A DNA stretch of 64,000 nucleotides from the NCBI RefSeq assembly GCF_002814095.1, contig NZ_CP021913.1, positions 434,001 through 498,000 of the forward strand, read 5' to 3'. The notes beneath the pieces are model-generated. The model worked only from the letters and a program-made list of their open reading frames with translations, made no database searches and was not told where the DNA came from. This document shows, in pieces, positions 5,049 to 35,462 of the stretch; positions within the stretch are counted from its first letter, which is position 1, and every line of letters starts with the position of its first letter. Source of the DNA: Sagittula sp. P11. GTDB lineage: Bacteria > Pseudomonadota > Alphaproteobacteria > Rhodobacterales > Rhodobacteraceae. Both the position numbers and the translations under genes were made by a program.

Positions 5049-5058
5049 TGGTATACCA
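5049..5058. promoter_or_regulatory. UxuR/ExuR-type operator TGGTATACCA (site 1)
   Basis: Perfect 10-bp palindrome in the context AATGGTATACCAAA, 22 nt upstream of the transketolase ATG and 126 nt upstream of the divergent acyl-CoA dehydrogenase. It is identical in core to five other sites in this window and to the known E. coli UxuR/ExuR operator. Probable binding site for the GntR/FCD regulator encoded at 8928-9614. Confidence 0.75.
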
Positions 5059-5080
5059 AAAGATGGGCAAGGGAGGAGAC

Positions 5081-5929
5081 ATGTCCACAGACCCCCACGC
5101 GGGCTCCAATGTGAGTCTCGCGCGCCGCGCATGGGCGATCAGACGCCATGCGCTGCGCATGGCCGAAGTGCAGGGACAGGGCTACATCGGGCAGGCGCTC
5201 GGCGTGGCGGACGTGCTGGCCACCAGCTATTTCCACGCCCTGACCTACGACCCGAAGGATCCGGACTGGGAAGGGCGCGACCGCTTCTACCTGTCGATCG
5301 GTCACTATGCCATCGCCCTCTACGCCGCCCTGATCGAAGCCGGCATCCTGCCCGAGGACGAGATCGGCACCTACGGCATGGACGATTCGCGGATGCCTAT
5401 GTCGGGCATGGCCGCCTACACGCCGGGCATGGAGATCACCGGCGGCAGCCTCGGCCACGGCCTTGGCATCGCGGTGGGCGCCGCGCTGGGGCTGAAGCGC
5501 AAGAACAGCAAATCCTTCGTTTACAACATGATGTCGGACGGAGAGCTGGGCGAAGGCTCGACCTGGGAGGCAGTCATGGCCGCCAGCAGCCACCGGCTCG
5601 ACAACCTGATCTGCATCGTCGACTTCAACGACCAGCAGGCCGACGGGCCGACCACGGCGGCGCTCGCCAAGGGCGACGAGGCCCCGAAGTGGGCGGCTTT
5701 CGGCTGGCACGCGCAGGAGGTGGACGGCAACGATCTGGACGCGCTGGTGGACGCCTTCGACGCCGCCCGCAACCTGACCGATGCCCGGCCCCGCGTCATC
5801 ATCTGCAAGACCCAGATGTGCAAGGGCGTGCCCTTCCTAGAAGAGCGGGAGATCACCCATTTCGTCCGCGTGGAGCCCTCCGAATGGTCCCGCGCCATCG
5901 CCCATCTCGACGGGCAGATGCCTGCCTGA
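5081..5929 (+). CDS. Transketolase, N-terminal (TPP-binding) subunit
   Basis: Split-type transketolase alpha subunit, 282 residues. With the next gene it forms the thiamine-diphosphate enzyme that moves two-carbon ketol units between sugar phosphates. The TPP-binding region shows SDGELGEGSTWEAVMAAS followed by IVDFNDQQ, the GDG...N pattern of the superfamily; GGSLGHGLGIAVGAALG precedes it. I chose the ATG at 5081 because it directly follows GGAGGAG and gives the family N-terminus; an upstream ATG at 5021 would start before the operator at 5049-5058. Partner subunit begins 52 nt downstream. Two-subunit transketolases in sugar-acid clusters are often special-purpose copies rather than the housekeeping enzyme, and the operator supports substrate-induced expression here. 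Confidence 0.9.
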   Translation: MSTDPHAGSNVSLARRAWAIRRHALRMAEVQGQGYIGQALGVADVLATSYFHALTYDPKDPDWEGRDRFYLSIGHYAIALYAALIEAGILPEDEIGTYGMDDSRMPMSGMAAYTPGMEITGGSLGHGLGIAVGAALGLKRKNSKSFVYNMMSDGELGEGSTWEAVMAASSHRLDNLICIVDFNDQQADGPTTAALAKGDEAPKWAAFGWHAQEVDGNDLDALVDAFDAARNLTDARPRVIICKTQMCKGVPFLEEREITHFVRVEPSEWSRAIAHLDGQMPA

Positions 5930-5981
5930 CCCCCGATCACGGGCCGGTTTCGCTACGAAACCCCTGCCCCGGAGACACCCC

Positions 5982-7037
5982 ATGACCGAAGCCCCGACCG
6001 GCGCGCTGAGCCGCCGCAAGTCCAAGCACCAGCCCCGCACCCTCCCCGTCTCGGAGACCGGAGAACGGCTGACCACCTCCGCGATGATCGCTTCCCTCGA
6101 CGCCGAGGGCCGCGAAACCGTCACCGCCCCCTTCGGCGAGGCGCTCTGCGAACTGGCGAAGACCCGCGACGACATCGTCGGCCTCACCGCCGACCTGTCG
6201 AAATACACCGACCTGCATGTCTTTGCCAAAGCCTACCCCGACCGGTTCTACCAGATGGGCATGGCCGAGCAGGTGATGATCTCTGCCGCCGCCGGGCTGG
6301 CGCGCGAGGGGTTCACCCCCTTCGCCACCACCTATGCCGTCTTCGCCTCCCGTCGCGCCTACGACTTCATCGTCATGGCCATCGCGGAGGAGAACCTGCC
6401 GGTGAAGATCGTCTGCGCCCTGCCCGGCCTGACGACCGGCTATGGCCCCAGCCACCAGGCGACCGAGGACCTCGCGATCTTCCGCGGCATGCCCAACCTC
6501 ACCATCGTCGATCCCTGCGACGCGACGGAGATCACGCAGGCCACCCACGCCATCGCCGACCATCCCGGCCCGGTCTACATGCGCCTCCTGCGCGGCAAGG
6601 TCCCGGACGTGCTGGGCGAATACGGCTACCGGTTCGAACTGGGCAAGGCCAAGCTGATCCACGACGGGCGCGACGTGCTGTTCATCTCCACCGGCTTCAT
6701 GACCATGCGCGCGCTCGATGCCGCCAAGGCGCTGAAACAGGACGGCACCGACTGCGCGGTCCTGCATGTGCCGACGATCAAGCCCCTCGACGTGGAGACG
6801 ATCAAGGCGGAGGCGGCGAAGACCGGGCGGCTTGTGGTCACGCTCGAGAACCACACCATCGTCGGCGGATTGGGGGAGGCCGTGGCCGCGGCGCTGATGC
6901 GCGCGGGCATCCATCCGGCCTTCGACAGCATCGCCCTGCCGGACGAATTCCTCGACGCGGGCGCCCTGCCGACCCTGCACGACCAGTACGGTCTGTCCGT
7001 CCGGGCCATCACCGAACGGGTCAGGGCGCGCCTCTGA
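5982..7037 (+). CDS. Transketolase, C-terminal (pyrimidine-binding) subunit
   Basis: Beta subunit of the split transketolase, 351 residues. It carries the pyrimidine-binding domain with the catalytic Glu region (DRFYQMGMAEQVMISAAAGLA) and the C-terminal transketolase domain (LVVTLENHTIVGGLGEAVA). The first 45 residues (MTEAPTGALSRRKSKHQPR...) are a charged extension ahead of the usual domain start, so a later start is possible, but the ATG at 5982 follows a purine-rich GGAGAC ribosome site. Cotranscribed with the alpha subunit and followed at 73 nt by an SDR. Function assignment as a two-chain transketolase/DXS-like enzyme is firm; the exact donor and acceptor sugars are not known. Confidence 0.88.
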   Translation: MTEAPTGALSRRKSKHQPRTLPVSETGERLTTSAMIASLDAEGRETVTAPFGEALCELAKTRDDIVGLTADLSKYTDLHVFAKAYPDRFYQMGMAEQVMISAAAGLAREGFTPFATTYAVFASRRAYDFIVMAIAEENLPVKIVCALPGLTTGYGPSHQATEDLAIFRGMPNLTIVDPCDATEITQATHAIADHPGPVYMRLLRGKVPDVLGEYGYRFELGKAKLIHDGRDVLFISTGFMTMRALDAAKALKQDGTDCAVLHVPTIKPLDVETIKAEAAKTGRLVVTLENHTIVGGLGEAVAAALMRAGIHPAFDSIALPDEFLDAGALPTLHDQYGLSVRAITERVRARL

Positions 7038-7110
7038 TCCCCGCCTCTCTCGCAACCCTTTCCGGGAGGACAGGCCCCGCCCCCTCCCCGCCAGCCACGG
7101 GAAACCCATC

Positions 7111-7863
7111 ATGCTCCTGAAGGACAAGACCGCCCTCATCACCGGCGCCGCCAGCCCGCGCGGGCTGGGCAAGGCTACCGCGAAACTCTTCGCCGAACAT
7201 GGCGCGCGGGTGGCCATCCTCGACCTCGACGCCAGCGCCGCCGAGGCCGCCGCCGCCGATCTGCCCGGTGACGGCCACATCGGCCTCGCCTGCAACGTCA
7301 CCGACAAGGCCGCCTGCGATGCCGCCGCCGGGGCGGCCATCGCCGCCTTCGGCCAGATCGACGTGCTGGTGAACAACGCGGGCATCACCCAGCCGCTGAA
7401 GCTGATGCAGATCGAACCTGCCAACTACGACGCCGTGACCGACGTGAACCTGCGCGGCACGCTCTACATGAGCCAGGCGCTGATCCCGCACATGCGCGAC
7501 CGCAGGACCGGCGCCATCGTCAACATATCCTCGGTCTCGGCGCAGCGTGGTGGCGGCATCTTCGGCGGTCCGCATTACTCCGCAGCCAAGGCCGGCATCC
7601 TCGGGCTGACCAAGGCCATGGCCCGCGAACTGGCGCCTGACGGCATCCGCGCCAACGCGGTCTGCCCCGGCTTCATCGCGACCGACATCACCGCCGGAAA
7701 GCTGACGCCCGAGATGATGGAACAGATCCTGGCGGGCATTCCCATGGGCCGCGCGGGCGAGGCTTCGGACGTGGCGGGCTGCTGCCTGTTCCTCGCCTCC
7801 GACCTCTCGGCCTATGTCACCGGGTCGGAGGTCGACGTGAACGGCGGGTCGCTCATCCATTGA
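7111..7863 (+). CDS. SDR family oxidoreductase
   Basis: Classical short-chain dehydrogenase, 250 residues, NAD(P)-dependent. The dinucleotide-binding loop reads TGAASPRGLGKATAK, a GxxxGxG variant with a Pro-Arg insertion. NNAGIT, the catalytic Ser in NISSVSAQRGG and the YSAAKAG Tyr/Lys pair are all present, with a normal C-terminus (GSEVDVNGGSLIH). Probably the third gene of the transketolase operon. Likely reduces or oxidises a sugar, polyol or keto-acid in the same pathway, but SDR substrates cannot be deduced from sequence. Confidence 0.85.
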   Translation: MLLKDKTALITGAASPRGLGKATAKLFAEHGARVAILDLDASAAEAAAADLPGDGHIGLACNVTDKAACDAAAGAAIAAFGQIDVLVNNAGITQPLKLMQIEPANYDAVTDVNLRGTLYMSQALIPHMRDRRTGAIVNISSVSAQRGGGIFGGPHYSAAKAGILGLTKAMARELAPDGIRANAVCPGFIATDITAGKLTPEMMEQILAGIPMGRAGEASDVAGCCLFLASDLSAYVTGSEVDVNGGSLIH

Positions 7864-8022: not shown

Positions 8023-8868
8023 TCACTGCGCCGCGACGGTTTCCTGCTTCTGCGTGCCGAGGCCCTCGACATAGACCTCCATCACGTCGCCCGGCTTCAG
8101 GAAGCGCTGGGGTTTCATGCCCATGCCCACACCCGAGGGCGTGCCGGTGGCGATGATGTCGCCCGGTTGCAGCAGCATGAAGTTCGACATGTACGCCACG
8201 ATCTCGGCCACGCCGAAGATCATGTCGTCGGTGTTCGAATCCTGCACCGTCTCGCCGTTCAGCTTCAGCGACAGCGCCAGCTTCTGCGGGTCCGGGATCT
8301 CGTCGGCAGTCACCAGCCACGGGCCGGTCGGGCCGAAGGTCGGGGCAGACTTGCCCTTCATCCACGTGCCGCCGCGCTCGATCTGGTACTCGCGCTCGGA
8401 CATGTCGTTGATGACGCAGTAGCCCGCCACGTGGGACAGCGCCTCGGCTTCCGTGATGTAGGAGGCGGTCTTGCCGATCACCACGCCCAGCTCGACCTCC
8501 CAGTCCGACTTCACCGAGCCGCGCGGGATCACCACCGGGTCGAAGGGACCGGACAGCGACGAGGTCGCCTTGTTGAAGATGATCGGCTCTTTCGGCGGCT
8601 CCGCACCGGTTTCGGCGGCGTGCTTGGCGTAGTTCAGGCCGATGCAGAAGAAGTTCGGCACGGTGGCGAGGCAGGCGCCGATGCGGCCCGGGTTCTCGAC
8701 CACCGGCAGGCTCGACACGTCCACCGACCGCAGCTTGTCGAGCGCCTCGATGGAGACGCTTTCGCCCGCGAAGTCGCTGACATGGGCCGAGAGGTCGCGC
8801 ACGCGGCCTTCATCGTCCAGCATACCGGGCTTTTCCTGGCCCGCCGGGCCGTAGCGCAAGAGTTTCAT
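8023..8868 (-). CDS. Fumarylacetoacetate hydrolase-family enzyme, probable 2,4-diketo-3-deoxy-L-fuconate hydrolase
   Basis: 281-residue FAH-superfamily protein. The sequence pattern (MKLLRYGPAGQEKPGMLDD, FFCIGLNYAKHAAE, KSDWEVELGVVIGK, YQIERGGTWMKGK) matches the branch that hydrolyses 2,4-diketo-3-deoxy-L-fuconate or related diketo-deoxy sugar acids to pyruvate plus lactate or glycolate; database names for this branch also include ureidoglycolate lyase. The DWEVELG motif carries metal-binding acidic residues. The ATG at 8866-8868 was chosen over an upstream start lying in the gntR gene. It follows gntR on the minus strand at 59 nt, so the two are probably cotranscribed. A 2-keto-3-deoxy-L-fuconate dehydrogenase-like SDR at 16659-17381 would supply its substrate. 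Substrate assignment is inference. Confidence 0.8.
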   Translation of the reverse strand: MKLLRYGPAGQEKPGMLDDEGRVRDLSAHVSDFAGESVSIEALDKLRSVDVSSLPVVENPGRIGACLATVPNFFCIGLNYAKHAAETGAEPPKEPIIFNKATSSLSGPFDPVVIPRGSVKSDWEVELGVVIGKTASYITEAEALSHVAGYCVINDMSEREYQIERGGTWMKGKSAPTFGPTGPWLVTADEIPDPQKLALSLKLNGETVQDSNTDDMIFGVAEIVAYMSNFMLLQPGDIIATGTPSGVGMGMKPQRFLKPGDVMEVYVEGLGTQKQETVAAQ

Positions 8869-8927: not shown

Positions 8928-9614
8928 TCAGCCGGAGGTCGCGGCAGAGGCAGGGTCCGTGGTCCCGGTCTGCTCGGAATCGAAGAAATCCGCCACGTTG
9001 ATCAGCAGGTGGTCGAGGTGCGCCCTGAGGCTCTTTTCCACTTCTGCCACGTCGCGGGCCCTGAGGCCCTGCACGATGGCCGCGTGCTGGTCCAGCACCC
9101 GGTCCCTTGCGTGCTTGCGGCTGGCCGAGAGGTAGCGCGCCCGCCACAGCCGTGCCAGCAGGGCGCGGTGCATCTCGGCCAGAACCGGATTGCCCGCCGC
9201 CTCCGCGATGGCGCGGTGAAAGCTCATGTCGATCTCGAAGACCTCCAGCTTGTCGAGTTTGTCGTATTCCCGTGCCATCCGGGCCGCGACGTCGCTGATG
9301 TGGTCGATCTCCGCGTCCGAGGCGCGTTCGCAGGCGAGCCGGGCAGACAGGAGCTCCAGCGCGGTCATCACTTCGATGTTGTGCGCCACGTCCTCGAAGG
9401 AGGGCTGCGCAACGATGGGCGACCGCGCCGGGCGCAGGATCACGAGGCCCTCCTTGGCGAGGATTCGAATCGCTTCGCGCATCGGCGTGCGGCTCACACC
9501 GAGTTCTCCCGCGTGATCGCGTTCCTTGACCGCCGTCCCGGGCGGCAGGACGCCCCGCAGGATGTCCCTCCGCAGACGATTCGCGATCTGCTCCGGCAAG
9601 GTCTCCTCGGCCAT
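8928..9614 (-). CDS. GntR-family (FadR/FCD) transcriptional regulator, candidate UxuR/ExuR-like regulator
   Basis: 228-residue DNA-binding protein with an N-terminal winged helix-turn-helix (residues about 5-70: QIANRLRRDILRGVLPPGT...GVSRTPMREAIRILAKEGLV) and a C-terminal FCD ligand-binding domain. The metal/ligand residues of FCD proteins are visible as Asp129 and His133 (EIDMSFH), His177 (LDQHAAI) and His199 (RAHLDHL). It is divergent from the TRAP transporter genes, with two TGGTATACCA palindromes between them, implying autoregulation and control of the transporter. UxuR and ExuR of E. coli belong to this family and bind this same palindrome. Effector expected to be a sugar acid or its keto-deoxy derivative; this is inferred. 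Confidence 0.88.
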   Translation of the reverse strand: MAEETLPEQIANRLRRDILRGVLPPGTAVKERDHAGELGVSRTPMREAIRILAKEGLVILRPARSPIVAQPSFEDVAHNIEVMTALELLSARLACERASDAEIDHISDVAARMAREYDKLDKLEVFEIDMSFHRAIAEAAGNPVLAEMHRALLARLWRARYLSASRKHARDRVLDQHAAIVQGLRARDVAEVEKSLRAHLDHLLINVADFFDSEQTGTTDPASAATSG

Positions 9615-9695: not shown

Positions 9696-9705
9696 TGGTA
9701 TACCA
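9696..9705. promoter_or_regulatory. UxuR/ExuR-type operator (site 2)
   Basis: Core TGGTATACCA inside a 14-bp perfect palindrome TTTGGTATACCAAA (9694-9707), in the divergent region between gntR (start 9614) and dctP (start 9889). 57 bp from site 3. Confidence 0.8.
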
Positions 9706-9752
9706 AAAATCCTTGCCTGTCGACATGGGTTTGGTTAGCGTACCTCCACGGG

Positions 9753-9762
9753 TGGTATACCA
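9753..9762. promoter_or_regulatory. UxuR/ExuR-type operator (site 3)
   Basis: Perfect TGGTATACCA palindrome, 126 nt upstream of the dctP start. With site 2 it forms a pair spaced 57 bp centre to centre. An imperfect half-site-like GGTTAGCGTACC lies between them at 9733-9744. Confidence 0.75.
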
Positions 9763-9888: not shown

Positions 9889-10899
9889 ATGAAGAAATTG
9901 CTGACGACGGCTGCGGCCGTTGCCATTGTTGCGACCGGCGCGTCGGCGCAGGACGTGACCCTGCGCATCCAGACGCACTACGCGACCGAGCATCCCTCGG
10001 GCATCCTGGCTGCCCAGTTCGCCGACGACGTGGAAACCATGTCCGAAGGCTCCATCGACATCGAGATGTTCTACAGCTCGTCCGTCGTGGCCACGACGGA
10101 AACTTTCGATGCCGCGATCAACGGCATTCTCGACTGCGACATGACCGGCGGCGCATACCAGACCGGCAAGAACCCGGCCTTCCAGTTCGTCGGCGACATC
10201 ATGGGCGGCTACGACACGCCGTGGCAGCAGATCTCGTGGCTGTACTACGGTGGCGGCTACGATGCCGCGCAGGAGCTGTACAACTCGCAGGGCATGCAGC
10301 TGGTCGGCTGGTGGCTTTACGGACAGGAATCGCTCTCTTCGTCCCAGCCGCTGGCAGGCCCCGACGACCTGAAGGGCTGGAAGTTCCGTTCGCCCCCGGG
10401 CCTCGAAACCGAGATCTTCGAGCAGTTGGGCGCGCAGCCCATCGTGATGGATTTCACCGAGGTCTTCACGGCGCTGGAAACCGGCATCATCGACGGTGCG
10501 GACGCATCCGGCCTGGCAAACAACGTGGGCCTCGGTCTCTATGACCTCGTGAACCACGCGACCTACCCGGGCTTCCACTCCATGCCGTCCGACCACCTCG
10601 CCTGCAACAAGGGCGTGTGGGACGGCCTGACCGAGGCACAGCGCCGGATCATCGACACCGCGATGCAGAAACTGACGCTGCACACCGCGCTGTCGAACGA
10701 GAAGAAGAACGCCGAAGCGGCGGCCATGCTGACCGAGAAGGGCGTGACCCTGCACAACTGGTCGGCAGAGGACCGGGCCGACTTCCGCAAGGCCGCACAG
10801 GTCGCGTGGGATGACTGGGCCGGCCGTTCGCCCGAGGCCGCTGCACTGGTCGAAAGCCACCGCAGCTACCTCAAGGATCTCGGCCTGATCGCGGAATAA
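9889..10899 (+). CDS. dctP: TRAP transporter solute-binding protein DctP
   Basis: Periplasmic substrate-binding protein of a tripartite ATP-independent (TRAP) transporter, 336 residues. Signal peptide MKKLLTTAAAVAIVATGASAQ (residues 1-21). The mature protein shows the DctP-family carboxylate-binding segment KFRSPPGLETEIFEQLGAQP followed by ETGIIDGADASG, where the conserved Arg normally pairs with the ligand carboxylate. Preceded by GGGAGGAGAC and two UxuR-type operators, divergent from gntR. A strong intrinsic terminator separates it from dctQ, which would give excess binding protein over membrane subunits. Gene content and operator suggest an aldonate, uronate or related sugar-acid ligand; the sequence alone does not prove it. 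Confidence 0.92.
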   Translation: MKKLLTTAAAVAIVATGASAQDVTLRIQTHYATEHPSGILAAQFADDVETMSEGSIDIEMFYSSSVVATTETFDAAINGILDCDMTGGAYQTGKNPAFQFVGDIMGGYDTPWQQISWLYYGGGYDAAQELYNSQGMQLVGWWLYGQESLSSSQPLAGPDDLKGWKFRSPPGLETEIFEQLGAQPIVMDFTEVFTALETGIIDGADASGLANNVGLGLYDLVNHATYPGFHSMPSDHLACNKGVWDGLTEAQRRIIDTAMQKLTLHTALSNEKKNAEAAAMLTEKGVTLHNWSAEDRADFRKAAQVAWDDWAGRSPEAAALVESHRSYLKDLGLIAE

Positions 10900-10924
10900 C
10901 ATCCGCATCCGACCGATGGACAGC

Positions 10925-10958
10925 AACGGCGGGCTCTTTCCCGGGGCCCGCCGTTTTT
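10925..10958 (+). terminator. Intrinsic terminator/attenuator between dctP and dctQ
   Basis: Perfect 10-bp stem AACGGCGGGC / GCCCGCCGTT with an 11-nt loop, running straight into T5. This is the cleanest intrinsic terminator in the window. It lies 25 nt after dctP and 42 nt before dctQ, so partial read-through would set the ratio of binding protein to permease. Confidence 0.85.
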
Positions 10959-11000
10959 GACACCAAGGGCCCCGATAACGGGGTCGCGGGGAGGCATATC

Positions 11001-11810
11001 ATGAACGGCGAGAGCGTCTGGCTCGGGTCGATGCGGGGACCGATCCGCTTGGCCATGTTCATCTTCATCATTCTGTCGCTGGCGATTTACGCCTGGTTCC
11101 TTATCGCGCAATACACCACGGCCGAGCCGATCGGCATGCACGAGATGATCCGCCCCGGGGGCCGGCCGCTGGTGCAGGCGCTCCTGATCAGCATCTTGCT
11201 CGCGCTGCTGTTCAGTTCGCTTTACCTGTCGGACTTCAAGGGCGTGATCGAGGTGGAGCGCACCGGCCCGTTCGACATCTTCAGCCTCGTCCTCGGGCGG
11301 CTGTCGATGATCGCCACGGCCTTCATCGTCGTCACCATGGGTTTCGAGGTCGTGGCGCGCTACATCTTCAACGGCGGCACGCTCTGGGCGAACGAGTTGT
11401 CGCTCTGGATCGCGGCCTTCGTGTTCCTGTTCTCCGGCCTCTACGCCATGCAGCAGCGCTGCCATATCCGCATCTACGTGATCTACGACATGATGCCGCG
11501 CTGGATGCAGAAGGCGTCCGACTGCACGTCGGTCTTCCTGATCTGGGTCTTCGTGGGCTGCCTGATCTGGGGCGGGTACAACGACGCGATCCGGCGTCTG
11601 ATGAACCTTGAGGGCTATGGCTCCGCATGGGATCCGCCGATCCCCGGCACGGTCAAGACCGCCGTCCTGGTCGTCGGCCTGGCGGTGGCGCTGCAGGCGC
11701 TGTCGAACCTGATCGCCGACTGGAACAAGGCGCCGGAACACCACTCCGCCGACGACATCGACGAACACGAAATCGAGAACATCCGCAAAACGCTCGAAGG
11801 GGACAAGTAA
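11001..11810 (+). CDS. dctQ: TRAP transporter small permease DctQ, N-terminally extended
   Basis: Small membrane subunit of the TRAP system, 269 residues against the usual 160-200. The DctQ core starts near residue 90 (FDIFSLVLGRLSMIATAFIV) and has the normal four membrane segments, including ELSLWIAAFVFLFSGLYAM. Ahead of it lie two additional hydrophobic segments (IRLAMFIFIILSLAIYAWFL and ALLISILLALLFSSLYLSDF), giving about six in total. The ATG at 11001 follows GGGGAGG. It abuts dctM directly: the DctQ stop TAA ends at 11810 and the dctM ATG begins at 11811. The extension looks genuine because it is hydrophobic and in good coding context. An alternative would be a shorter start inside the gene. 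Confidence 0.88.
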   Translation: MNGESVWLGSMRGPIRLAMFIFIILSLAIYAWFLIAQYTTAEPIGMHEMIRPGGRPLVQALLISILLALLFSSLYLSDFKGVIEVERTGPFDIFSLVLGRLSMIATAFIVVTMGFEVVARYIFNGGTLWANELSLWIAAFVFLFSGLYAMQQRCHIRIYVIYDMMPRWMQKASDCTSVFLIWVFVGCLIWGGYNDAIRRLMNLEGYGSAWDPPIPGTVKTAVLVVGLAVALQALSNLIADWNKAPEHHSADDIDEHEIENIRKTLEGDK

Positions 11811-15516: not shown

Positions 15517-15568
15517 CAGGGGCGCATTGGTTGCCGTTGCCCGGAAGACGGAACGAGAGGACGACTTC

Positions 15569-21818: not shown

Positions 21819-21821
21819 CCC

Positions 21822-27216: not shown

Positions 27217-27816
27217 ATGCTGACCTTCGCCGCCGCCGTCTTCTTCCTGATCGTGACACCCGGACCCGGCGTGCTCTCGACCGCCGGGCTGGGCGCCGCC
27301 TACGGCTTCCGCGCCGGACTGCGCTATCTGATCGGCCTGTTCATCGGGACGAACCTCGTGGCGCTGGCGGTGATCTCCGGCGTCGCGGCCATCGTGCTGT
27401 CGGTGCCGGTGATCCGCTGGGTTCTCATGGTGGCCTCCATCGGATATCTCCTGTTCCTCGCCTCGCGCATCGCCTTCGCAGGCTCGCGCCTCGCCTTCAT
27501 CGAGGCCAAGGCCCCGCCGGCCATAGGCGCCGGCATCCTGCTGCAGGCGATCAACCCCAAGGCCTATGCCGTCAACACCACGCTCTTCGCCGGCTTTCCC
27601 TTCGCCCCCGACAATCTCGTGTTCGAGACCGTGGCCAAGCTCCTGATCGTCAACACGATCTGGATTCCGATCCACCTCGGCTGGCTCTTCGCCGGGGCTT
27701 CGCTGCACCGCCTCAACCTCTCCGACCGCAGCCAGCGGATCATCAACATCGCGATGGCCGCCTCCATGCTGCTGGTCGTCGCCCTTGCCCTCTATTCCGG
27801 CCTGAAGAATGCCTGA
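27217..27816 (+). CDS. LysE/RhtB-family exporter
   Basis: Integral membrane exporter of about 199 residues with roughly six hydrophobic helices. The family signature is at the N-terminus: FFLIVTPGPGVLSTAGLGAA, then GFRAGLRYLIGLFIGTNLVA. The preferred start is the ATG at 27217, because LysE proteins begin just before this motif; in-frame ATGs at 27175 and 27139 would add residues with no similarity. The only good ribosome site (GGAGGA, 27185-27190) precedes a 9-codon ORF (27194-27223) that overlaps this ATG, so translation may be coupled. First gene of the operon; its end overlaps the next gene by 8 nt. The family exports amino acids or other small polar compounds; its role here is not clear. 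Confidence 0.8.
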   Translation: MLTFAAAVFFLIVTPGPGVLSTAGLGAAYGFRAGLRYLIGLFIGTNLVALAVISGVAAIVLSVPVIRWVLMVASIGYLLFLASRIAFAGSRLAFIEAKAPPAIGAGILLQAINPKAYAVNTTLFAGFPFAPDNLVFETVAKLLIVNTIWIPIHLGWLFAGASLHRLNLSDRSQRIINIAMAASMLLVVALALYSGLKNA

Positions 27817-29191
27817 CACATTGCACACCAACGCCCTCACCCGTCTCACCGCCCTGCTCGGAGACCGGCTCGTCACCTCGGAGGCCGACCGCCGCCTGCA
27901 CGGCCAGAACGAGACCTACTACCCCAACACCCCGCCCGACGCGGTGGCCTACCCGGAGACGACCGCCGAGGTCTCGGAGATCGTGAAGATCTGCGCCGAC
28001 ACCGGCACGCCCGTCACCCCCTACGGCGCCGCCAGTTCGCTGGAAGGACAGCACCTCGCCGTCCAAGGCGGCATCAGCCTCGATTTCGCGCGGATGAACC
28101 GGCTGCTTTCTGTCTCCGCCGAGGACCTGCTCTGCACCGCGCAGCCCGGCCTGACCCGCAAGCGCCTGAACGAGGACCTGCGCGACACCGGGCTCTTCTT
28201 CTCCGTCGATCCCGGCGCCGATGCCTCGCTGGGCGGCATGGCCGCCACCCGCGCCTCCGGCACCACCGCCGTCCGCTACGGCACCATCCGAGAGAACATC
28301 CTCGCGCTCGAGGCGGTGATGGCGGACGGCACGATCATCCGCACCGGGTCGGAGGCGCGCAAGTCCGCCACCGGCTACGACCTCACGCACCTGCTGATCG
28401 GGTCGGAGGGCACGCTGGGCATCATCACCGAGCTGACGCTCCGCCTGCACGGCCTGCCCGAATCCGTCGCCGCCGCCACCTGCCGCTTCGCGTCCGTCGA
28501 GGACGCGGTGAACTGCGTGATCCTGACGATCCAGTCCGGCCTGCCCATGGCGCGCATCGAACTGCTGGACCACATGATGGTGCGCGGCTTCAACCGCTAC
28601 GCCCAGGCCGACCTGCCGGAAGAACCGCACCTCTTCCTCGAATTCCACGGCTCGGAGGCCGGCGTGGCCGAACAGTCCGCCGCCTTCCGCGAGATCGCCG
28701 CAGACTTCGGCGCCTCGGGCTGGAAGGACGCCGTGAAGGCCGAGGACCGCAACGCGCTCTGGGCCATGCGCCACAGCGCGCATTACGCATCGGCCGCGCT
28801 CGGCGAAGGCCGCCACATCTGGCCCACCGACACCTGCGTGCCGATCTCGAAACTGGCGGAGGCGGTGACATGGGCGCAGACCCGCGCCGCCGAGATCGGG
28901 CTGACGGCCACCATCGTCGGCCACGTCGGCGACGGCAACTTCCACGTGGGCCTCTCCGTCGATCCCGAAAACCCGGCCGAGATGGCGCGCGCCCATGACT
29001 ACACCCACGCGCTGGGAGAGATGGCGCTGCGCCTGCGCGGCACGGTCAGCGGCGAACACGGCATCGGCATCGGCAAGCAGGATTTCATGACCGAGGAACA
29101 CGGCCCCGCCGTCCCCTTCATGCGCGCCATCAAGCAGGCGCTCGACCCCGGGGGCATCCTGAACCCCGGCAAGTTGCTCCCGCCCGCCTGA
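27809..29191 (+). CDS. FAD-linked 2-hydroxyacid dehydrogenase (D-lactate/glycolate oxidase GlcD-type)
   Basis: 460-residue flavoprotein of the vanillyl-alcohol-oxidase fold that oxidises a D-2-hydroxyacid (lactate, glycolate or similar) to the 2-oxoacid. FAD-binding PCMH domain near residues 35-215 (TPVTPYGAASSLEGQHLAVQ, GADASLGGMAATRASGT), then the FAD-oxidase C-terminal domain with the conserved HVGDGNFHV and SGEHGIGIGK. Starts inside the end of the LysE gene (8-nt overlap). In this operon it could oxidise the glycolate or lactate released from diketo-deoxy acids, or a C4 aldonate. D-lactate dehydrogenase is the nearest textbook name, but the donor is not proven. Confidence 0.86.
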   Translation: MPDTLHTNALTRLTALLGDRLVTSEADRRLHGQNETYYPNTPPDAVAYPETTAEVSEIVKICADTGTPVTPYGAASSLEGQHLAVQGGISLDFARMNRLLSVSAEDLLCTAQPGLTRKRLNEDLRDTGLFFSVDPGADASLGGMAATRASGTTAVRYGTIRENILALEAVMADGTIIRTGSEARKSATGYDLTHLLIGSEGTLGIITELTLRLHGLPESVAAATCRFASVEDAVNCVILTIQSGLPMARIELLDHMMVRGFNRYAQADLPEEPHLFLEFHGSEAGVAEQSAAFREIAADFGASGWKDAVKAEDRNALWAMRHSAHYASAALGEGRHIWPTDTCVPISKLAEAVTWAQTRAAEIGLTATIVGHVGDGNFHVGLSVDPENPAEMARAHDYTHALGEMALRLRGTVSGEHGIGIGKQDFMTEEHGPAVPFMRAIKQALDPGGILNPGKLLPPA

Positions 29192-29204
29192 CATGCGACA
29201 CCCT

Positions 29205-29256
29205 GAGTTTTCGGACGAAAACTCTGCCCCTTCAGGACTTTTCGAAGAAAAGTCCT
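29205..29256 (+). repeat. Two tandem perfect hairpins in the intercistronic gap
   Basis: Hairpin 1: GAGTTTTC-GGAC-GAAAACTC (29205-29224). Hairpin 2: AGGACTTTTC-GAA-GAAAAGTCCT (29234-29256). Both are perfect, share a TTTTCG/GAAAA theme, and occupy nearly the whole 85-nt gap between the FAD dehydrogenase and the XylX-like gene. They could be an internal attenuator, an RNase-processing or stability element, or a short palindromic repeat. Confidence 0.75.
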
Positions 29257-29276
29257 CTGCCACGGAAAGACGACTG

Positions 29277-30401
29277 ATGACACTGAGAAACCCCGACCCC
29301 AAAGGCACCTTCCTCGCCCGCGTCCTGCGCCCCGGCACAGGCCCCTGCATCGCCCGCCTCGACGGCGACACGCTGGTGGACATCACCTCGAAGACCGCGC
29401 CGACGATGCGCGACCTGCTCGAACTCGACGACCCGCTGGCCCATGTCCGCGCGGCAGAGGGCGAGAGCTTCGCCACCCTCGCCGACATCGGCACCGGCGG
29501 CCTGGAGCTGCTCGCCCCCTGCGACCTGCAGGTGGTCAAGGCCTCCGGCGTCACCTTCGCCCAGTCCATGGTCGAACGCGTGATCGAGGAGCAGGCCGCC
29601 GGCGATCCCGACCGGGCGGAGGCGATCCGCACCCGGGTCGGGCGGATCATCGGCGACAGCCTCGCGGGCCTCGTGCCCGGCTCCGAGAAGGCGGCGGAGG
29701 TCAAGAAGGTCCTGCAGGCCGAGGGCCTCTGGTCGCAGTACCTCGAGGTCGGCATCGGCCCGGACGCGGAGGTCTTCACCAAGTGCCCCACCCTCGCCGC
29801 CGTGGGCCATGGCGCCGACGTGGGCCTGCACCCCATGTCGCGCTGGAACAACCCCGAACCGGAGGTCGTGCTGGCCGTCACGTCGAAGGGCGACATCGTC
29901 GGCGCCACGCTGGGCAACGACGTCAACCTGCGCGACGTCGAGGGCCGTTCCGCCCTGCTGCTGGGCAAGGCCAAGGACAACAACGCCTCCGCCTCCGTCG
30001 GGCCCTTCCTGCGGCTCTTCGACGAGACCTACGGCATGGCGGATGTCGAATCCGCCGAACTCACCCTGACGGTCGAGGGCGAGGACGGCTACACGCTCAA
30101 CGGCAGTTCGTCGATGTCGAAGATCTCGCGCCCGCCCGCCTCCATCGTCGGGCAGACCATCGGCAAGCACCACCAGTACCCCGACGGCTTTTTCCTCTAC
30201 CTCGGCACGCTCTTCGCGCCGACCGAGGACCGCGACACCAAGGGCCAGGGCTTCACGCACAAGGTGGGCGACGTGGTGACCATCGCCGAGCCGAAGCTCG
30301 GCGCGCTGACCAACACCGTGCGGCTTTCGACCGACTGTGCGCCCTGGACCTTCGGCGTGGCGGCCCTGATGCGCAACCTCGCACAAAGGGGGCTTCTGTG
30401 A
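29277..30401 (+). CDS. FAH-family 2-keto-3-deoxy-pentonate dehydratase, XylX-like
   Basis: 374-residue FAH-superfamily protein that follows the XylX pattern of the Weimberg pathway closely (ASGVTFAQSMVERVIEEQA, LWSQYLEVGIGPDAEVFTK, GNDVNLRDVEGRSALLLGKA, HHQYPDGFFLYLGTLFAPT, C-terminus LMRNLAQRGLL). XylX dehydrates 2-keto-3-deoxy-D-xylonate or its L-arabinonate equivalent to 2-oxoglutarate semialdehyde. The ATG at 29277 follows GGAAAGACGACTG and gives the right start; an earlier frame start would cross the two hairpins. Overlaps the kinase gene by 4 nt (GTGA). A XylD-like dehydratase (19344-21125) could feed it. I see no 2-oxoglutarate-semialdehyde dehydrogenase in the window. Confidence 0.85.
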   Translation: MTLRNPDPKGTFLARVLRPGTGPCIARLDGDTLVDITSKTAPTMRDLLELDDPLAHVRAAEGESFATLADIGTGGLELLAPCDLQVVKASGVTFAQSMVERVIEEQAAGDPDRAEAIRTRVGRIIGDSLAGLVPGSEKAAEVKKVLQAEGLWSQYLEVGIGPDAEVFTKCPTLAAVGHGADVGLHPMSRWNNPEPEVVLAVTSKGDIVGATLGNDVNLRDVEGRSALLLGKAKDNNASASVGPFLRLFDETYGMADVESAELTLTVEGEDGYTLNGSSSMSKISRPPASIVGQTIGKHHQYPDGFFLYLGTLFAPTEDRDTKGQGFTHKVGDVVTIAEPKLGALTNTVRLSTDCAPWTFGVAALMRNLAQRGLL

Positions 30402-31312
30402 ACTTCCTCTCCATCGGAGAAATCATGGTCGAACTGGCGCCCGCGGGCGAAGGGCTGCTGCGGCAGGGCTTTGCCGGGGACACGTTCAACACCGCATGGT
30501 ACGCCCGCCGCCTGCTGCCGCCCGGCTGGACGGTCAGCTACGGCACGGTGATCGGCGAGGATGCGGTGTCCGAGGACATGGCCCGCTTCATATCCGGCGA
30601 AGGGCTGTCGACCGACGCGCTGGCCCGCCACCCCGACCGCACCGTCGGGCTCTACATGATCTCGCTGAAGGACGGCGAGCGGAGCTTTTCCTACTGGCGC
30701 GGCCAGTCGGCGGCAAAGACGCTGGCCGACGATCCGGCGCGGCTGGCGGACATGCTGAAGGGCCGCGACAACATCCATTTCTCCGGCATCACGCTGGCGA
30801 TCCTGCCCTCCGAGGCGCGCCGCACCTTCTGCGATGCGCTCGCCACCGCGCGGGCCGAAGGCGCGCACATCAGCTTCGACACCAACCTCCGGCCCCGCCT
30901 CTGGGAAGGGACCGACGCCATGCGCGACGGCCTGACGCTCGGCGCCTCCGTCGCCGACACCGTGCTGCCCTCCTTCGACGAGGAACAGACCGTCTTCGAC
31001 GACAAGACGCCCGAGGACACCATCGCCCGCTACGCCAATGGCGGCGCCACCTGCGTTGCGGTCAAAAACGGCGGCGCGGCGGTGACCGCATGGGCGTCCT
31101 CCGAAGGCAGCGCCGAAATCGCCCCGCCCCGCGTCGAGCAGGTCGTGGACAGCACGGCAGCCGGCGACAGCTTTGCCGCGGGCTTCCTCTGCGCGCGGGC
31201 CGAAGGGGCATCCGCGGCCGAGGCGGCCCACCGCGCGGCGGACCTCGCCTCGCGGGTCATCCAATATCGCGGCGCGCTTGCGCCGGCCATCTTCACGGGA
31301 GACGAGACATGA
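30398..31312 (+). CDS. PfkB-family sugar kinase, 2-keto-3-deoxygluconate kinase-like
   Basis: 304-residue ribokinase/PfkB-family kinase. The start is a GTG at 30398, preceded by AAAGGGGGC and overlapping the XylX-like stop by 4 nt; it gives the family N-terminus (M)NFLSIGEIMVEL. ERSFSYWRGQSAAKTL matches KDG kinase, FDTNLRPRLWEG is the sugar-pocket region, and the catalytic Asp lies in DSTAAGDSFAAGF. KdgK phosphorylates 2-keto-3-deoxy-D-gluconate for the Entner-Doudoroff aldolase. Overlaps the next gene by 4 nt (ATGA), so translation is coupled. The presence of KdgK alongside a UxuR-type operator suits hexuronate or aldonate catabolism. Confidence 0.86.
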   Translation: MNFLSIGEIMVELAPAGEGLLRQGFAGDTFNTAWYARRLLPPGWTVSYGTVIGEDAVSEDMARFISGEGLSTDALARHPDRTVGLYMISLKDGERSFSYWRGQSAAKTLADDPARLADMLKGRDNIHFSGITLAILPSEARRTFCDALATARAEGAHISFDTNLRPRLWEGTDAMRDGLTLGASVADTVLPSFDEEQTVFDDKTPEDTIARYANGGATCVAVKNGGAAVTAWASSEGSAEIAPPRVEQVVDSTAAGDSFAAGFLCARAEGASAAEAAHRAADLASRVIQYRGALAPAIFTGDET

Positions 31313-32271
31313 ACATCCTCATCATCGGCGGCGCGGGTGTCGTCGCCAGAAAACTCGCACGCGCCCTCGCGGACAAGGGCACCCTGCGCGGCAAGGACAT
31401 CAGCAAACTGACGCTGGCCGACATCGGCGAGGCCGAGACGGTCGACGCGCCCTTCCCGGTCGAGACCGCGCAATGCGACATCACCGATCCGGCCTCCGTC
31501 GCGAAGATCATCACCGAAGAGACCGACGTCATCTACCTGCTCGCCGCCGTCGTTTCGGCCCATGCCGAGGAGGACTTCGACTTCGGCTACAAGGTCAACA
31601 TGTTCGGCACGCTGAACGTGCTGGAGCGCTGCCGCGCGCTGGGGACGAAGCCCGTTCTGGTCTTCACCTCCTCCATCGCCGTTTTCGGCGGCGAGGTGCC
31701 GCAGCCGTTCCACGACCATTCCGCGCTCAACCCGCAGATCAGCTACGGCGCGCAGAAGGCCATCGGCGAACTGCTGGTCAACGACTACACCCGGCGCGGC
31801 TTCATTGACGGGCGCGGTTTCCGTCTGCCGACGATCTCCGTCCGGCCCGGCAAGGCCAACCGCGCGGCCTCGTCCTTCATGTCCTCGATCTTCCGCGAGC
31901 CGCTGCAGGGCCAGGAAGCGGTCTGCCCGGTCGACGAGGCGTTTCCGCATTTCTACCTCTCGCCGAAGCAATGCGCGCTGAACCTCGTGACCGGCGCCGA
32001 GATCCCGGCCGAGGACCTCGGGCTCTGCCCGACCATGACCATGCCGGGCCGGGTCTGGACGATCCGCCAGATGATCGACGCGATGACCGCCGTCGCCGGG
32101 CCCGAGCCGGCCAAGCTGATCCGCTGGGAGGAACAGCCCGAGATCGCGCATATCCTCAAGGGCTGGCGGCTCGACGTCCGCCCGCAGAAGGCCGAGCGCC
32201 TGGGCCTGAAGGCCGACGACAGCTTCGAGGACAACATCCGCTACTTCCTGGAAGAGGACATCGTGCGCTGA
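31309..32271 (+). CDS. NAD-dependent epimerase/dehydratase, D-erythronate dehydrogenase (DenD)-like
   Basis: 320-residue extended SDR. NAD-binding loop IGGAGVVARKLARALADKG, then IYLLAAVVSAHAEEDFDFGY, FTSSIAVFGGEVPQPF and YGAQKAIGELLVNDYTRRGF with the YxxxK pair, then LPTISVRPGKANRAASSF. This pattern is typical of the DenD group, which oxidises D-erythronate at C2 in tetronate catabolism. Start ATG overlaps the kinase stop by 4 nt. No OtnK/OtnI/OtnC partners of the tetronate pathway are visible, so related sugar-acid oxidation is also possible. Confidence 0.8.
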   Translation: MNILIIGGAGVVARKLARALADKGTLRGKDISKLTLADIGEAETVDAPFPVETAQCDITDPASVAKIITEETDVIYLLAAVVSAHAEEDFDFGYKVNMFGTLNVLERCRALGTKPVLVFTSSIAVFGGEVPQPFHDHSALNPQISYGAQKAIGELLVNDYTRRGFIDGRGFRLPTISVRPGKANRAASSFMSSIFREPLQGQEAVCPVDEAFPHFYLSPKQCALNLVTGAEIPAEDLGLCPTMTMPGRVWTIRQMIDAMTAVAGPEPAKLIRWEEQPEIAHILKGWRLDVRPQKAERLGLKADDSFEDNIRYFLEEDIVR

Positions 32272-32335
32272 CCCGGCGCACGATCCCCGAAGCTCACCAA
32301 CGCCACAGGACCACCACACCCCGAAAGGAGTGCAC

Positions 32336-33091
32336 ATGCCCGATTTTGCCATCTACCCGAGCCTGAAAGGCAAGTCCGTCCTCGTCACCGGCGGCGCCTC
32401 CGGCATCGGCGCCGAGATAGTGAAGGCCTTCGCCGCGCAGGGCGCGCGCGTGGGTTTCGTCGATTTCGACGAGAAGACCGCCGAGGCGCTGGTCGCCGAT
32501 ACCGAGGGCGAGCTGGCCTTCGAACCCTGCGACCTGCGCGACATCGACCAGCTCCGCGCGGCCTTTGCCCGGATCGCCGACCGCATCGGCGCGCCGACCG
32601 TGCTGGTCAACAACGCCGCCCGCGACGACCGCCACGGCTGGGAAGACGTGACGCCCGAGTACTGGGACGAACGCTTTGCCACCAACTTCCGGCACATGTT
32701 CTTTGCGATCCAGGCGGTGGTGCCGGGCATGATCGAGGCCGGCGGCGGTTCGATCATCAACATGGGGTCGAATTCGTGGTGGGAGAAATCCACCGGCATG
32801 CCCGCCTACACGGCCGCGAAGTCCGCCGTGCACGGGCTGACGCGGTCCTCGGCCAAGGAGTTCGGCAAGCACCGCATCCGGGTCAACGCCGTGGTGCCCG
32901 GCTGGGTCATGACGGAGCGCCAGAAGGAGCTCTGGGCCACGCCGGAAAAGCTGGACGAACACCTCAAGGGCCAGTGCCTGCCCGACCTGATCGAGCCGGT
33001 CTACCTCGCCCGGATGGTGCTGTTCCTCGCGTCTGACGATTCCGCCATGTGCACGGCCAGCAACTTCTTCGTCGAGGCCGGGTCCGTGTGA
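32336..33091 (+). CDS. SDR family oxidoreductase
   Basis: 251-residue SDR. Cofactor loop TGGASGIGAEIVKA, NNAARDDRHGW, catalytic Ser in NMGSNSWWEKS and Tyr/Lys in YTAAKSAVHGL. The ATG at 32336 is preferred over a GTG at 32330, since AAAGGAG ends 5 nt before the ATG. Last gene of the LysE-led operon, 64 nt after the DenD-like gene, and followed by terminator hairpins. The SNSWWEKS active-site region is characteristic of aldose/galactose dehydrogenase-like SDRs, so a sugar dehydrogenase providing the aldonate or lactone is plausible. Confidence 0.83.
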   Translation: MPDFAIYPSLKGKSVLVTGGASGIGAEIVKAFAAQGARVGFVDFDEKTAEALVADTEGELAFEPCDLRDIDQLRAAFARIADRIGAPTVLVNNAARDDRHGWEDVTPEYWDERFATNFRHMFFAIQAVVPGMIEAGGGSIINMGSNSWWEKSTGMPAYTAAKSAVHGLTRSSAKEFGKHRIRVNAVVPGWVMTERQKELWATPEKLDEHLKGQCLPDLIEPVYLARMVLFLASDDSAMCTASNFFVEAGSV

Positions 33092-33284: not shown

Positions 33285-34222
33285 TCAGTTGACCGGCGTG
33301 ACGAGGTCCTTGCCTTCGAGGAAGGCGGTGATGTTGGCCAGTTGCAGCTCGGCCATGGCGCGGCGCGTTTCCACCGTGCCGGAGCCCTGGTGCGGCTGCA
33401 GGTGCACGTTCTTCAGCTTGCGGAAGCGCGGGTCGATGTCGGGTTCGTTCAGGAAGACGTCGAGCGCCGCGCCGCGCAGCTGGCGCTTCTCGAGCGCATC
33501 GAGGAGCGCGCCCTCGTCCACCGTGGTGCCGCGCGAGATGTTGACCACCACGCCCTCGGACCCCAGCGCCTCGAGCGCCTCCGCCCCGACGAAGTTGCGG
33601 GTCTCCTCGCCGCCGACCAGCGCGATCACCAGCCAGTCCACCGCACCGGCCAGAGAGACCACGTCGGAGTGGAAGGTCCAGCCCGGTGTCTCCTTCTCGG
33701 AGCGGGCGAAGTAGTGGATGTCCATCTTGAAGGCCGCCAGACGGTCCGCGATCTCGCGCCCGATGCGGCCCAGGCCCACGATGCCCACGGTGCCACCCGA
33801 CATCTTGCGGTTCAGCGGCAGCGACTGCTGCGCCCATCCGCCCGAGATGGTCAGCGCGTGGCCGCGGACCATGTCGCGCGAGAAGGCCAGCATCATGCCC
33901 ACCGCCAGGTCTGCCACATCGTCGTTCAGCACGTCGGGCGTGTTCGTCACCGCGACGCTGCGGGCCGAGGCCGCGTCCACGTCGATGGCGTCGTAGCCCA
34001 CGCCGAAGTTCGCGATCAGGCCAAGGTTCGGCAGGGCGTCCATCGCCTCCGGACCGAAGGGGGTGTGGCCCTTGAAGGCCACCGCCCGCACTTCCGTCCG
34101 GAGCGTGGTGTCCATCCCGGCGATGTCCTCGGGGAGGACACGAAGGCGGCGGCATGGGCACCGGCGAGACGCCCGCGCTCTTCCTCGGTGAATGCGTTGC
34201 CGACGATCAGCAGATTGGTCAT
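33285..34222 (-). pseudogene. 2-hydroxyacid dehydrogenase, disrupted by a frameshift
   Basis: D-isomer-specific 2-hydroxyacid dehydrogenase split over two frames. The N-terminal part (MTNLLIVGNAFTEEERGRL..., from 34222) and the main part (MDTTLRTEVRAVAFKGHTPF to LEGKDLVTPVN, ending 33285) join around 34128-34138, at a GGGG run (34131-34134) inside a small hairpin GTCCTC-GGG-GAGGAC. Restoring one base gives an intact protein of about 312 residues, the family norm, with GIVGLGRIGREIAD and the catalytic Arg, Glu and His regions present. The downstream part is otherwise undamaged, so this is either a very recent mutation or a sequencing error in a homopolymer. It begins 1 nt after the stop of the aminotransferase gene and would reduce a 2-oxoacid such as glyoxylate or hydroxypyruvate. 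Confidence 0.8.
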
Positions 34223-34223
34223 G

Positions 34224-35411
34224 TTATTTTTCCTTTCTGGCCTCCAGCAGGCCGCGGATGCGGCGCAGGGCCTCTTCTATGTTCTCGGTCGAATTGGCGT
34301 AGGAGAAGCGCAGGTAGCCCTCTCCGTACGCGCCGAAGGAGGTGCCGGCGACCGTGGCCACGCCTCCTTCCTCAAGGAACAGCGTCTGCGCCTCCATGGC
34401 GGAAAGACCAGTCCCCTCGATATTGGGGAAGGCGTAGAACGCGCCCGCCGCGTCGGCGCAGCGCACCCCCGGCAGCGCGTTCAGCCCGTCGACGATCACC
34501 TTGCGGCGGGTGTCGAAGGCCTCGTTCATCGCGGCGACCTCGTCCTGCGGGCCTTCCAGCGCGGCGATGCCGGCGAACTGCGTTGCGGCGTTCACGCACG
34601 AGTGGTCGTTGACGCAGAGCCGGGTGACATGCTCCACCAGCTGTTCCGGCCAGACCGCGTAGCCCAGCCGCCAGCCGGTCATGGCGTAGCGCTTCGACCA
34701 GCCGTCGAGCACGATCAGCCGGTCGCGGATCTCCGGGTATTGCAGCAGCGAGACGTGCTGGCGCCCGCCGTAGAGCATCGTCGAGTAGATCTCGTCCGAC
34801 AGGATCGCGACGTGCGGGTGTTCTGCCAGACCGGCGACCAGCTTGTCGACCTCTTCCTTCGGCGTGACACCGCCGGTCGGGTTCGCGGGCGAGTTGATGA
34901 TGATCAGCCGGGTCGCGGGCGTGATCTGGGCCAGCACCTCCTCGGCGGAGAAGGCAAAGCCGTTCTCTTCCTTCAGGGCCATCGGCACGGCCTTGGCGCC
35001 GCTGTACCGGATGACCGACTCGTAGATCGGGAAGCCGGGGTTGGGATAGATGATCTCGGCCCCCGGTTCGCCGAACATCAGGACGGCGAAGAACATCGTG
35101 GGCTTGCCGCCCGGCACGACGACCACGTGATCGGGGTTCACCTCGACGCCGTGGCGCCTGTCCAGATCGGCGGCCACCGCCGAGCGGAGCTGCGGCAGGC
35201 CGTTGGCCGGGGTGTAGCCATGGGCGCCGTCGTGCAACGCCTTCACCGCCGCCTCGACGATGTGGTCGGGCGTGCGGAAATCGGGCTGGCCGATCCCGAG
35301 GTTGATGATGTCACGCCCCTGGGCGACCAGCGCACCTGCGCGTGCCAGCACCACGAAAGCCGATTCAGTTCCGAGCCGCGACATCCCCGCGGCAAGCGTC
35401 AGTTGCGCCAT
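34224..35411 (-). CDS. Class I/II PLP-dependent aminotransferase (aspartate aminotransferase-like)
   Basis: 395-residue fold-type I aminotransferase. Key segments are HGYTPANGLPQLRSAVAADL, NSPANPTGGV, DEIYSTMLYGG and LDGWSKRYAMTGWRLGYAV, in which the Lys of WSKRYAMTGWR is the PLP Schiff-base residue. The ATG at 35409-35411 (MAQLTLAAGMSRL) is taken as start; the longer frame continues through the operator. Preceded by GGGGGAGGACAC. An UxuR-type operator lies 42 nt upstream and the broken 2-hydroxyacid dehydrogenase follows 1 nt downstream, which suggests linked transamination and reduction of a 2-oxoacid, for example glyoxylate or hydroxypyruvate metabolism. Substrate is not determinable. Confidence 0.87.
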   Translation of the reverse strand: MAQLTLAAGMSRLGTESAFVVLARAGALVAQGRDIINLGIGQPDFRTPDHIVEAAVKALHDGAHGYTPANGLPQLRSAVAADLDRRHGVEVNPDHVVVVPGGKPTMFFAVLMFGEPGAEIIYPNPGFPIYESVIRYSGAKAVPMALKEENGFAFSAEEVLAQITPATRLIIINSPANPTGGVTPKEEVDKLVAGLAEHPHVAILSDEIYSTMLYGGRQHVSLLQYPEIRDRLIVLDGWSKRYAMTGWRLGYAVWPEQLVEHVTRLCVNDHSCVNAATQFAGIAALEGPQDEVAAMNEAFDTRRKVIVDGLNALPGVRCADAAGAFYAFPNIEGTGLSAMEAQTLFLEEGGVATVAGTSFGAYGEGYLRFSYANSTENIEEALRRIRGLLEARKEK

Positions 35412-35452
35412 GTGTCCTCCCCCGGCCATCGCCTCGCGACCGTTCGGAAATC

Positions 35453-35462
35453 TGGTATACCG
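35453..35462. promoter_or_regulatory. UxuR/ExuR-type operator, degenerate copy (site 6)
   Basis: TGGTATACCG: the central 8 bp GGTATACC are perfect, the outermost base differs from sites 1-5. Located 42 nt upstream of the aminotransferase start on the minus strand. Confidence 0.6.

Follow-up and report, generated by a model that had tools for sequence, protein, structure and literature searches.

In Escherichia coli, the UxaA/GarD-type dehydratase, KdgK and uxuA steps belong to the ExuR/UxuR pathway, and fructuronate is the inducer of UxuR. Here we analyzed a 64-kb window of the Sagittula sp. P11 genome (C1:434001-498000; positions below are those of the window) in which six closely similar palindromes lie next to genes for sugar-acid uptake and breakdown. 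They are very probably the operators of one regulon, read by the FCD/GntR-type protein encoded at 8928-9614 (REG), which would repress the corresponding operons. Judged by sequence, this regulon is similar to that of UxuR in its principle of operation and some of its enzymes, but REG is not an orthologue of UxuR or ExuR.

Several described systems are close to this locus. In PMC4494728, whose table covers 76 alphaproteobacterial FadR-subfamily proteins, the sites of the UxuR, HypR, GntR, PrpR, MdcY and HpxS groups have 2 nt between GT and AC and those of ExuR have 3. The window operators show the GT-2-AC spacing, which agrees with UxuR and departs from the GT-3-AC of ExuR. With the gammaproteobacterial UxuR regulon the locus shares this palindrome, the FadR subfamily and the control of sugar-acid dehydratases, with uxuA, uxaA-family and kdgK steps in common. 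It differs in that REG is not orthologous by model score and tree, in that the uxuA site is not conserved in our family sample, and in that a TRAP transporter, an IlvD-type dehydratase and FAH enzymes head the operon set. For Rhodobacteraceae, PMC5507952 predicts a UxuR that is likewise a GntR-family sugar-acid regulator from the same family; by that description, its targets differ, being a glucuronate ABC transporter and the UxaC route. The same source places TRAP genes in the sugar-acid loci of Halomonas AraR2, named there a GntR-family protein, and FucR, with TRAP, uxaA, COG1028 (SDR) and COG0179 (FAH) genes at the L-fuconate/L-galactonate locus. This TRAP/UxaA/SDR/FAH mix is similar in gene content to the window, whereas the bacterial class and the gene order are different.

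E. coli NanR is also a GntR/FCD protein, with the operator letters GGTATA (PMC8012715). REG matches it by phmmer and scores 84.5 bits with the NanR model NF003011 (cut-off, 260). NanR sites are close direct repeats occupied by three dimers, whereas the sites here are single palindromes or pairs 55 to 60 bp apart. Literature searches on the motif and on related regulators returned no description of this regulon; they did not extend to the supplements on the FadR subfamily and of PMC5507952, where it may already have been described.

Operator sites and their distribution

The window contains six copies of the octamer GGTATACC (at 5050, 9697, 9754, 21191, 27119 and 35454), compared with a mean of 0.06 and a maximum of 1 in shuffled versions of the window sequence. 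Five of these copies are exact matches to TGGTATACCA, and the remaining one, at 35453, reads TGGTATACCG and ends in G. An earlier note on this DNA had reported six palindromes, five of them perfect, in numbers far above chance, and this description was accurate. A scoring matrix trained on 78 regulator-promoter sites of 42 relatives, with the window excluded, gave the six sites scores of 11.4 to 28.7; the next best score in the window was 3.4 (99% background, 3.5). All six sites are intergenic if each gene starts at the ATG downstream of a GGAGG-like ribosome site, as we assumed. Their intergenic status depends on this choice, because the longest open reading frames (ORFs) of the transketolase N subunit, the 21294 gene, an acyl-CoA-dehydrogenase-like gene, the dehydratase and the aminotransferase extend upstream over a site.

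In the whole genome (5,576,178 bases), TGGTATACCA is present in eight copies, five of which are inside the window; its reversed control is present in three. By simple arithmetic, the chance that at least five of eight copies fall into one given 64-kb stretch is about 1e-8. Genome-wide there are 17 copies of the shorter GGTATACC, six of which are in the window, and 16 of its reversed control, indicating that the octamer is concentrated here and not enriched genome-wide. Beyond the window there are three perfect sites. One of them overlaps the 5′ edge of the uxuA reading frame (TIGR00695, 468 bits; cut-off, 200); the other two are intergenic and precede an ilvD-type gene (TIGR00110, 655 bits; cut-off, 618) and a gene for an ABC-transporter ATPase. 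The regulon is thus local, as the note had it, insofar as most perfect sites are in the window, but it is not confined to it. A xylulokinase gene is preceded by CGGTATACCA, and the same gene has a perfect site in the congener G002. Another congener, G003, holds a counterpart for each of the eight perfect sites. Among these, the ilvD-type site (L091 8991, C1:1912489), also found in G003, could denote a link to branched-chain amino-acid synthesis or be a chance site.

Conservation of the sites was analyzed at orthologues that are at least 45% identical, begin close to the first residues of the protein and have at least 250 bp of upstream sequence; a site had to lie at most 300 bp upstream. Across 42 loci, the site was kept upstream of the regulator gene in 41/41 and of TrapP in 40/40 usable cases. 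It was also kept at HIBDH (5/5), IlvD (4/6), AT (2/2) and AcDH (2/3), and in the single cases available for RraA, SDR4 and LysE (1/1 each). For every site of the window, at least one relative carries a site at the same gene; in the case of the 27118 site, G002 and G003 do so at the same pair of genes. These conserved sites at orthologous promoters, together with the gene content, bear out the proposal of one operator set with sugar-acid targets.

The motif also tracks the regulator. In a sample of 198 family genomes, one per genus, the mean number of TGGTATACCA copies was 5.44 (minimum, 2) in the 25 genomes with a regulator at least 47% identical to REG and 0.87 in the other 173 (Mann-Whitney p = 3.3e-16), while the reversed control gave 1.56 and 1.69 for the same split (p = 0.32). 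When all 35 matches at E 1e-40 were counted as regulator-positive, the means were 4.37 and 0.82 (p = 2.6e-14), and p remained below 1e-13 with each identity cut-off tried (47, 45 and 38%). Two genomes of this sample, G139 and G066, have no regulator match and yet hold 7 and 5 copies; in them the motif may serve a different regulator.

The regulator and its divergon

REG has the best FCD domain among the 23 FCD genes of the genome (PF07729, 99.7 bits; cut-off, 24.3), and its residues 3 to 92 match GntR-family profiles, all below their cut-offs. The palindrome of the FadR/FCD subfamily is TKGT/ACMA with 2 to 3 nt between GT and AC, and TGGT-AT-ACCA, to which REG would bind, conforms to it. Strong sites (28.7 and 18.4 by the matrix) are found near only this one of the 23 FCD genes, two others having weak variants nearby (6.9 to 8.7).

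We collected 42 relatives of the locus using the regulator protein and not the motif as the query. Their regulators are 42 to 79% identical to REG and share one of six short peptides with it, a procedure that misses more distant relatives. Most are from Rhodobacteraceae, by the family name or by a genus of this family, four are assigned to Alphaproteobacteria only and one, L086, is from Rhizobiaceae. GGTATACC is present upstream of the regulator gene in 42/42 relatives, at most about 165 bp from its start. This result and the co-occurrence described above argue that the GntR/FCD gene lying between two of the sites, which the earlier note had singled out, is the likely regulator. In two relatives whose available stretch contains no TRAP genes (L062 and L070), the regulator keeps its site and IlvD genes with sites lie nearby, as does AT in L070. 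The congener G001, also without TRAP genes in the available stretches, has an apparent IlvD-SDR-regulator-FAH operon on one strand, with a site at its head before IlvD.

The site upstream of the regulator gene is paired in 36 of the 42 relatives, or in 37 of 43 divergons when the window is counted. In these 37 divergons, to which the spacing statistics refer (the 6 single-site divergons being excluded), the two copies are always 55 to 60 bp apart (mean, 56.1; standard deviation, 1.1), with no correlation to the intergenic length, which varies from 182 to 274 bp (r = 0.13). A promoter-like element lies between them. In the window it consists of TTGCCT at 9713-9718 and TAGCGT at 9736-9741, and the pattern TTGnnTGTCGA...TAnC is found between the operators in 32/37 paired divergons, with a 17-nt spacer in 31; it was composed after viewing the alignment and is descriptive. 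If these hexamers are taken as -35 and -10, the REG-proximal operator is centered at about -48 and the TRAP-proximal one at about +10 (in the relatives, between about +8 and +12). The two operators differ in their flanks, the TRAP side showing GATGGTATACCATC and the regulator side ATTTGGTATACCAAA.

The near-fixed spacing and the bracketed promoter-like element suggest repression by occlusion, combined with autoregulation. Most likely, a REG dimer binds TTGGTATACCAA-like sites and represses the operons for uptake and breakdown of sugar acids. In its own divergon, dimers bound at both operators would block access of RNA polymerase to the TRAP promoter, and the REG-proximal operator would also limit transcription of the regulator gene. 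An acid of the pathway, perhaps a 2-keto-3-deoxy acid or an aldonate, would then release REG from the DNA.

Two further observations concern operator arrangement. In some relatives two copies of TGGTATACCA are only 18 to 25 bp apart (L054, at 1049 and 1067; also G115, G200 and G042), representing a second, tighter pairing. In addition, the nearest FCD paralogue of REG in the tree described below, encoded in the same genome (C1 ~3.068 Mb), lies close to the palindrome AAAATGGAATGCCATTTT (L035 1196-1213), which may be a sister operator whose center has changed.

UxuR identity and other explanations

The motif had been attributed in the earlier note to UxuR/ExuR. In favor of REG being this lineage's true UxuR/ExuR, and of a hexuronate regulon, are the UxuR-type spacing, the unlinked perfect site at uxuA and the presence of a UxaA/GarD-family dehydratase and a KdgK-like kinase inside the controlled operons. 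However, REG scores only 23.9 bits with the UxuR model NF007588 (cut-off, 442) and 33.3 bits with the ExuR model NF008571 (cut-off, 396), and it is 27 and 28% identical to the respective E. coli proteins. In a tree of 39 proteins, including five of the 42 outside regulators, three congeners and REG of the window, REG groups with its relatives (100/97) and E. coli ExuR with UxuR (100/99). Both groups share a broader fork with weaker support (87/84), a point in favor of this identity, but the protein that joins ExuR and UxuR inside it is L030, another FCD protein of this genome (97/93), whose branch is long. L030 (C1:1340003-1340377) may be a closer ExuR/UxuR counterpart.

Nor is the site at uxuA conserved in our family sample. 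A search of 120 genomes for uxuA gave 52 matches in 48 of them; 30 of the matches, our own included, were retrieved as loci. Among these 30 family loci, only our own has GGTATACC upstream of uxuA, the copy in L124 lying inside the gene; otherwise the site was seen only in the congener G003. Six of the 29 other loci have a different FCD-like gene beside uxuA, without GGTATACC and without a TKGT-N2/3-ACMA palindrome at that gene, and its products form a separate group in the tree (83/86). No GGTATACC is found in the E. coli uxuA-uxuB-uxuR and uxaCA-exuT-exuR stretches; the uxu stretch contains TGGTCAACCA, TGGTTAACCA and TGGTTGACCA. We therefore rejected the identification of REG as UxuR or ExuR on model score, tree and uxuA conservation, and regard a hexuronate regulon under such a protein as quite unlikely.

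The sites might instead be read by a different DNA-binding protein, such as an FCD paralogue or the LacI-family protein encoded at 24156-25277, the REG gene being merely a target. The genome does encode 22 other FCD proteins, and some regulator-less genomes keep several motif copies; nevertheless, site number follows the presence of REG over the 198 genomes, and strong sites accompany no other FCD gene here, making another reader very unlikely. That the cluster is a product of chance or of repeats, with no regulatory role, agrees with the octamer being about as frequent genome-wide as its reversed control. It is hard to reconcile with the 0.06 copies expected in the window and with orthologous promoters that keep the sites over many genera, and we give it almost no credence. 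A different question is how the paired operators act. Two dimers might cooperate by looping or bridging rather than by bracketing the promoter, since constant spacing, here 55 to 60 bp in 37/37 pairs, defines the class called co-operative in PMC4494728. A distance of 55 to 57 bp corresponds to about 5.2 to 5.4 helical turns, which is no whole number, and the conserved promoter-like element that fills the gap is enough to fix the spacing. Bracketing of the promoter is thus the simplest reading, and looping, with which it is not mutually exclusive, seems a lesser, somewhat unlikely possibility.

Several observations weigh against a REG-controlled repression regulon as proposed here. The site is poorly kept at TktN (4/19), 2HADH (1/3) and SDR2 (1/30), and FAH (0/33), GarD (0/23), EamA (0/32) and SDR1 (0/20) have no site of their own. 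Of the 163 genomes in which no regulator match reaches E 1e-40, 12 still carry 3 to 7 copies of TGGTATACCA, so the motif may serve other proteins as well. Proteins 38 to 46% identical to REG are encoded in ten genomes; nine of these hold 0 to 2 copies and one holds 7. The 42 loci are related, some nearly identical, and do not represent 42 independent events; the regulator gene of G001 has no site itself; and an operator at -48 could in principle activate instead of repress. TrapQ (0/38), TrapM (0/39), TktC (0/19) and a few genes with one to three cases likewise lack a site of their own. Such site-less genes would be internal genes of operons, provided that the operons are as we delimit them.

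Target genes and meaning of the regulon

The features of the locus are collected in Table 1. All sites of the target list drawn up earlier have counterparts in relatives; the weak entry is transketolase, whose standing as a core target suffers from a site retained in 4/19 relatives (5/19 above the 99% background by the matrix). The split transketolase, with its two subunits at 5081-7037, sits within a set of sugar-acid genes.

Table 1 Operators, promoter and genes of the locus (window positions)
Feature	Position	Strand	Remarks
Operator TGGTATACCA	5049..5058	.	22 bp before the assumed start of the transketolase N subunit; counterpart in 4/19 relatives and G003
Split transketolase N and C subunits, SDR	5081..7863	+	C subunit and SDR assigned by model; N by frame, adjacency to C and conservation
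FAH-family hydrolase, 2,4-didehydro-3-deoxy-L-rhamnonate-hydrolase-like	8023..8868	-	NF053535, 393.9 bits (below cut-off 500); best solved match 8gsr
FCD/GntR regulator (REG), predicted autorepressor and repressor of the regulon	8928..9614	-	FCD domain; motif upstream in 42/42 relatives
Operator TGGTATACCA, REG-proximal	9696..9705	.	Center at about -48 of the putative TRAP promoter; matrix score 28.7
Putative sigma-70-like promoter of the TRAP operon, TTGCCT-17-TAGCGT	9713..9741	+	Between both operators; conserved element
Operator TGGTATACCA, TRAP-proximal	9753..9762	.	Center at about +10 of the putative TRAP promoter; matrix score 18.4
TRAP transporter DctP, DctQ, DctM	9889..13406	+
UxaA/GarD-family dehydratase, putative TRAP operon	13942..15435	+	36% identical to E. 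coli UxaA
GFO/IDH/MocA oxidoreductase, putative TRAP operon	15527..16630	+	Coordinates are those of the ORF; the gene may in fact start further downstream
SDR and EamA permease genes, putative TRAP operon	16602..18333	+
IlvD/EDD-type dehydratase (19344-21125) and SDR (18509-19531, longest ORF)	18509..21125	-	PRK13017, 996 bits (cut-off 684)
Operator inside the 18-bp perfect palindrome CATTTGGTATACCAAATG	21190..21199	.	Between the IlvD/EDD dehydratase and the divergent 21294 gene; IlvD counterpart in 4/6 relatives
Small protein without Pfam match (21294-21818) and RraA-like aldolase (21822-22517)	21294..22517	+	Divergent from the dehydratase
HIBDH/2-hydroxy-3-oxopropionate-reductase-like gene and SDR	25274..27055	-	Reductase models below cut-offs
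Operator TGGTATACCA	27118..27127	.	Between SDR (26294-27055) and the LysE-GlcD-XylX-KdgK-DenD operon; HIBDH-headed counterpart in 5/5 relatives, LysE 1/1
LysE, GlcD-like oxidase, XylX-like FAH protein, KdgK-like kinase, D-erythronate dehydrogenase, SDR	27139..33091	+
2-Hydroxyacid dehydrogenase and aminotransferase	33285..35411	-
Operator TGGTATACCG, one mismatch	35453..35462	.	41 bp before the assumed aminotransferase start; counterpart in 2/2 relatives, G001 and G002

The products point to the catabolism of more than one type of sugar acid. The TRAP binding protein is most similar to 4pe3, followed by 2zzv and 7ug8 (ketoacid-binding) and 7e9y (a lactate-binding fusion), and the FAH hydrolase gene is probably an operon partner of REG. 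In the LysE operon, D-erythronate dehydrogenase (31306-32271) exceeds its cut-off (NF043036, 376 bits; cut-off, 325); the KdgK-like kinase (~30398-31312; 244 bits, cut-off 400) and the GlcD-like oxidase (321 bits, cut-off 568) are below theirs. An apparent fused enzyme at 30496-32271 proved to be an ORF artifact, its first 270 residues being a wrong frame over the KdgK-like gene, and conservation rows labelled KinEpi accordingly represent mostly D-erythronate dehydrogenase. Likewise, an ORF without Pfam match at 15586-16440 is a wrong frame, the real gene being that of the GFO/IDH/MocA oxidoreductase.

A well-conserved FCD-type sugar-acid regulon, an ordinary and known kind of gene switch, is well supported by these data. 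It is possible, with chances somewhat short of even, that REG is a Rhodobacteraceae regulator not described before, which would place IlvD-type dehydration, FAH-type cleavage, UxaA/UxuA/KdgK steps and glycolate-type oxidation under the control of a single operator. In this view, two operators with different flanks form a conserved module that brackets the transporter promoter and would provide graded control of uptake together with autoregulation. The analysis also corrects a tempting mislabel, as a UxuR-like operator does not make its reader UxuR. Some 25 scattered genes become one testable regulon, and several enzymes of uncertain substrate are linked to a common signal. In many Rhodobacteraceae, the motif offers a way to identify additional targets and perhaps the substrate.

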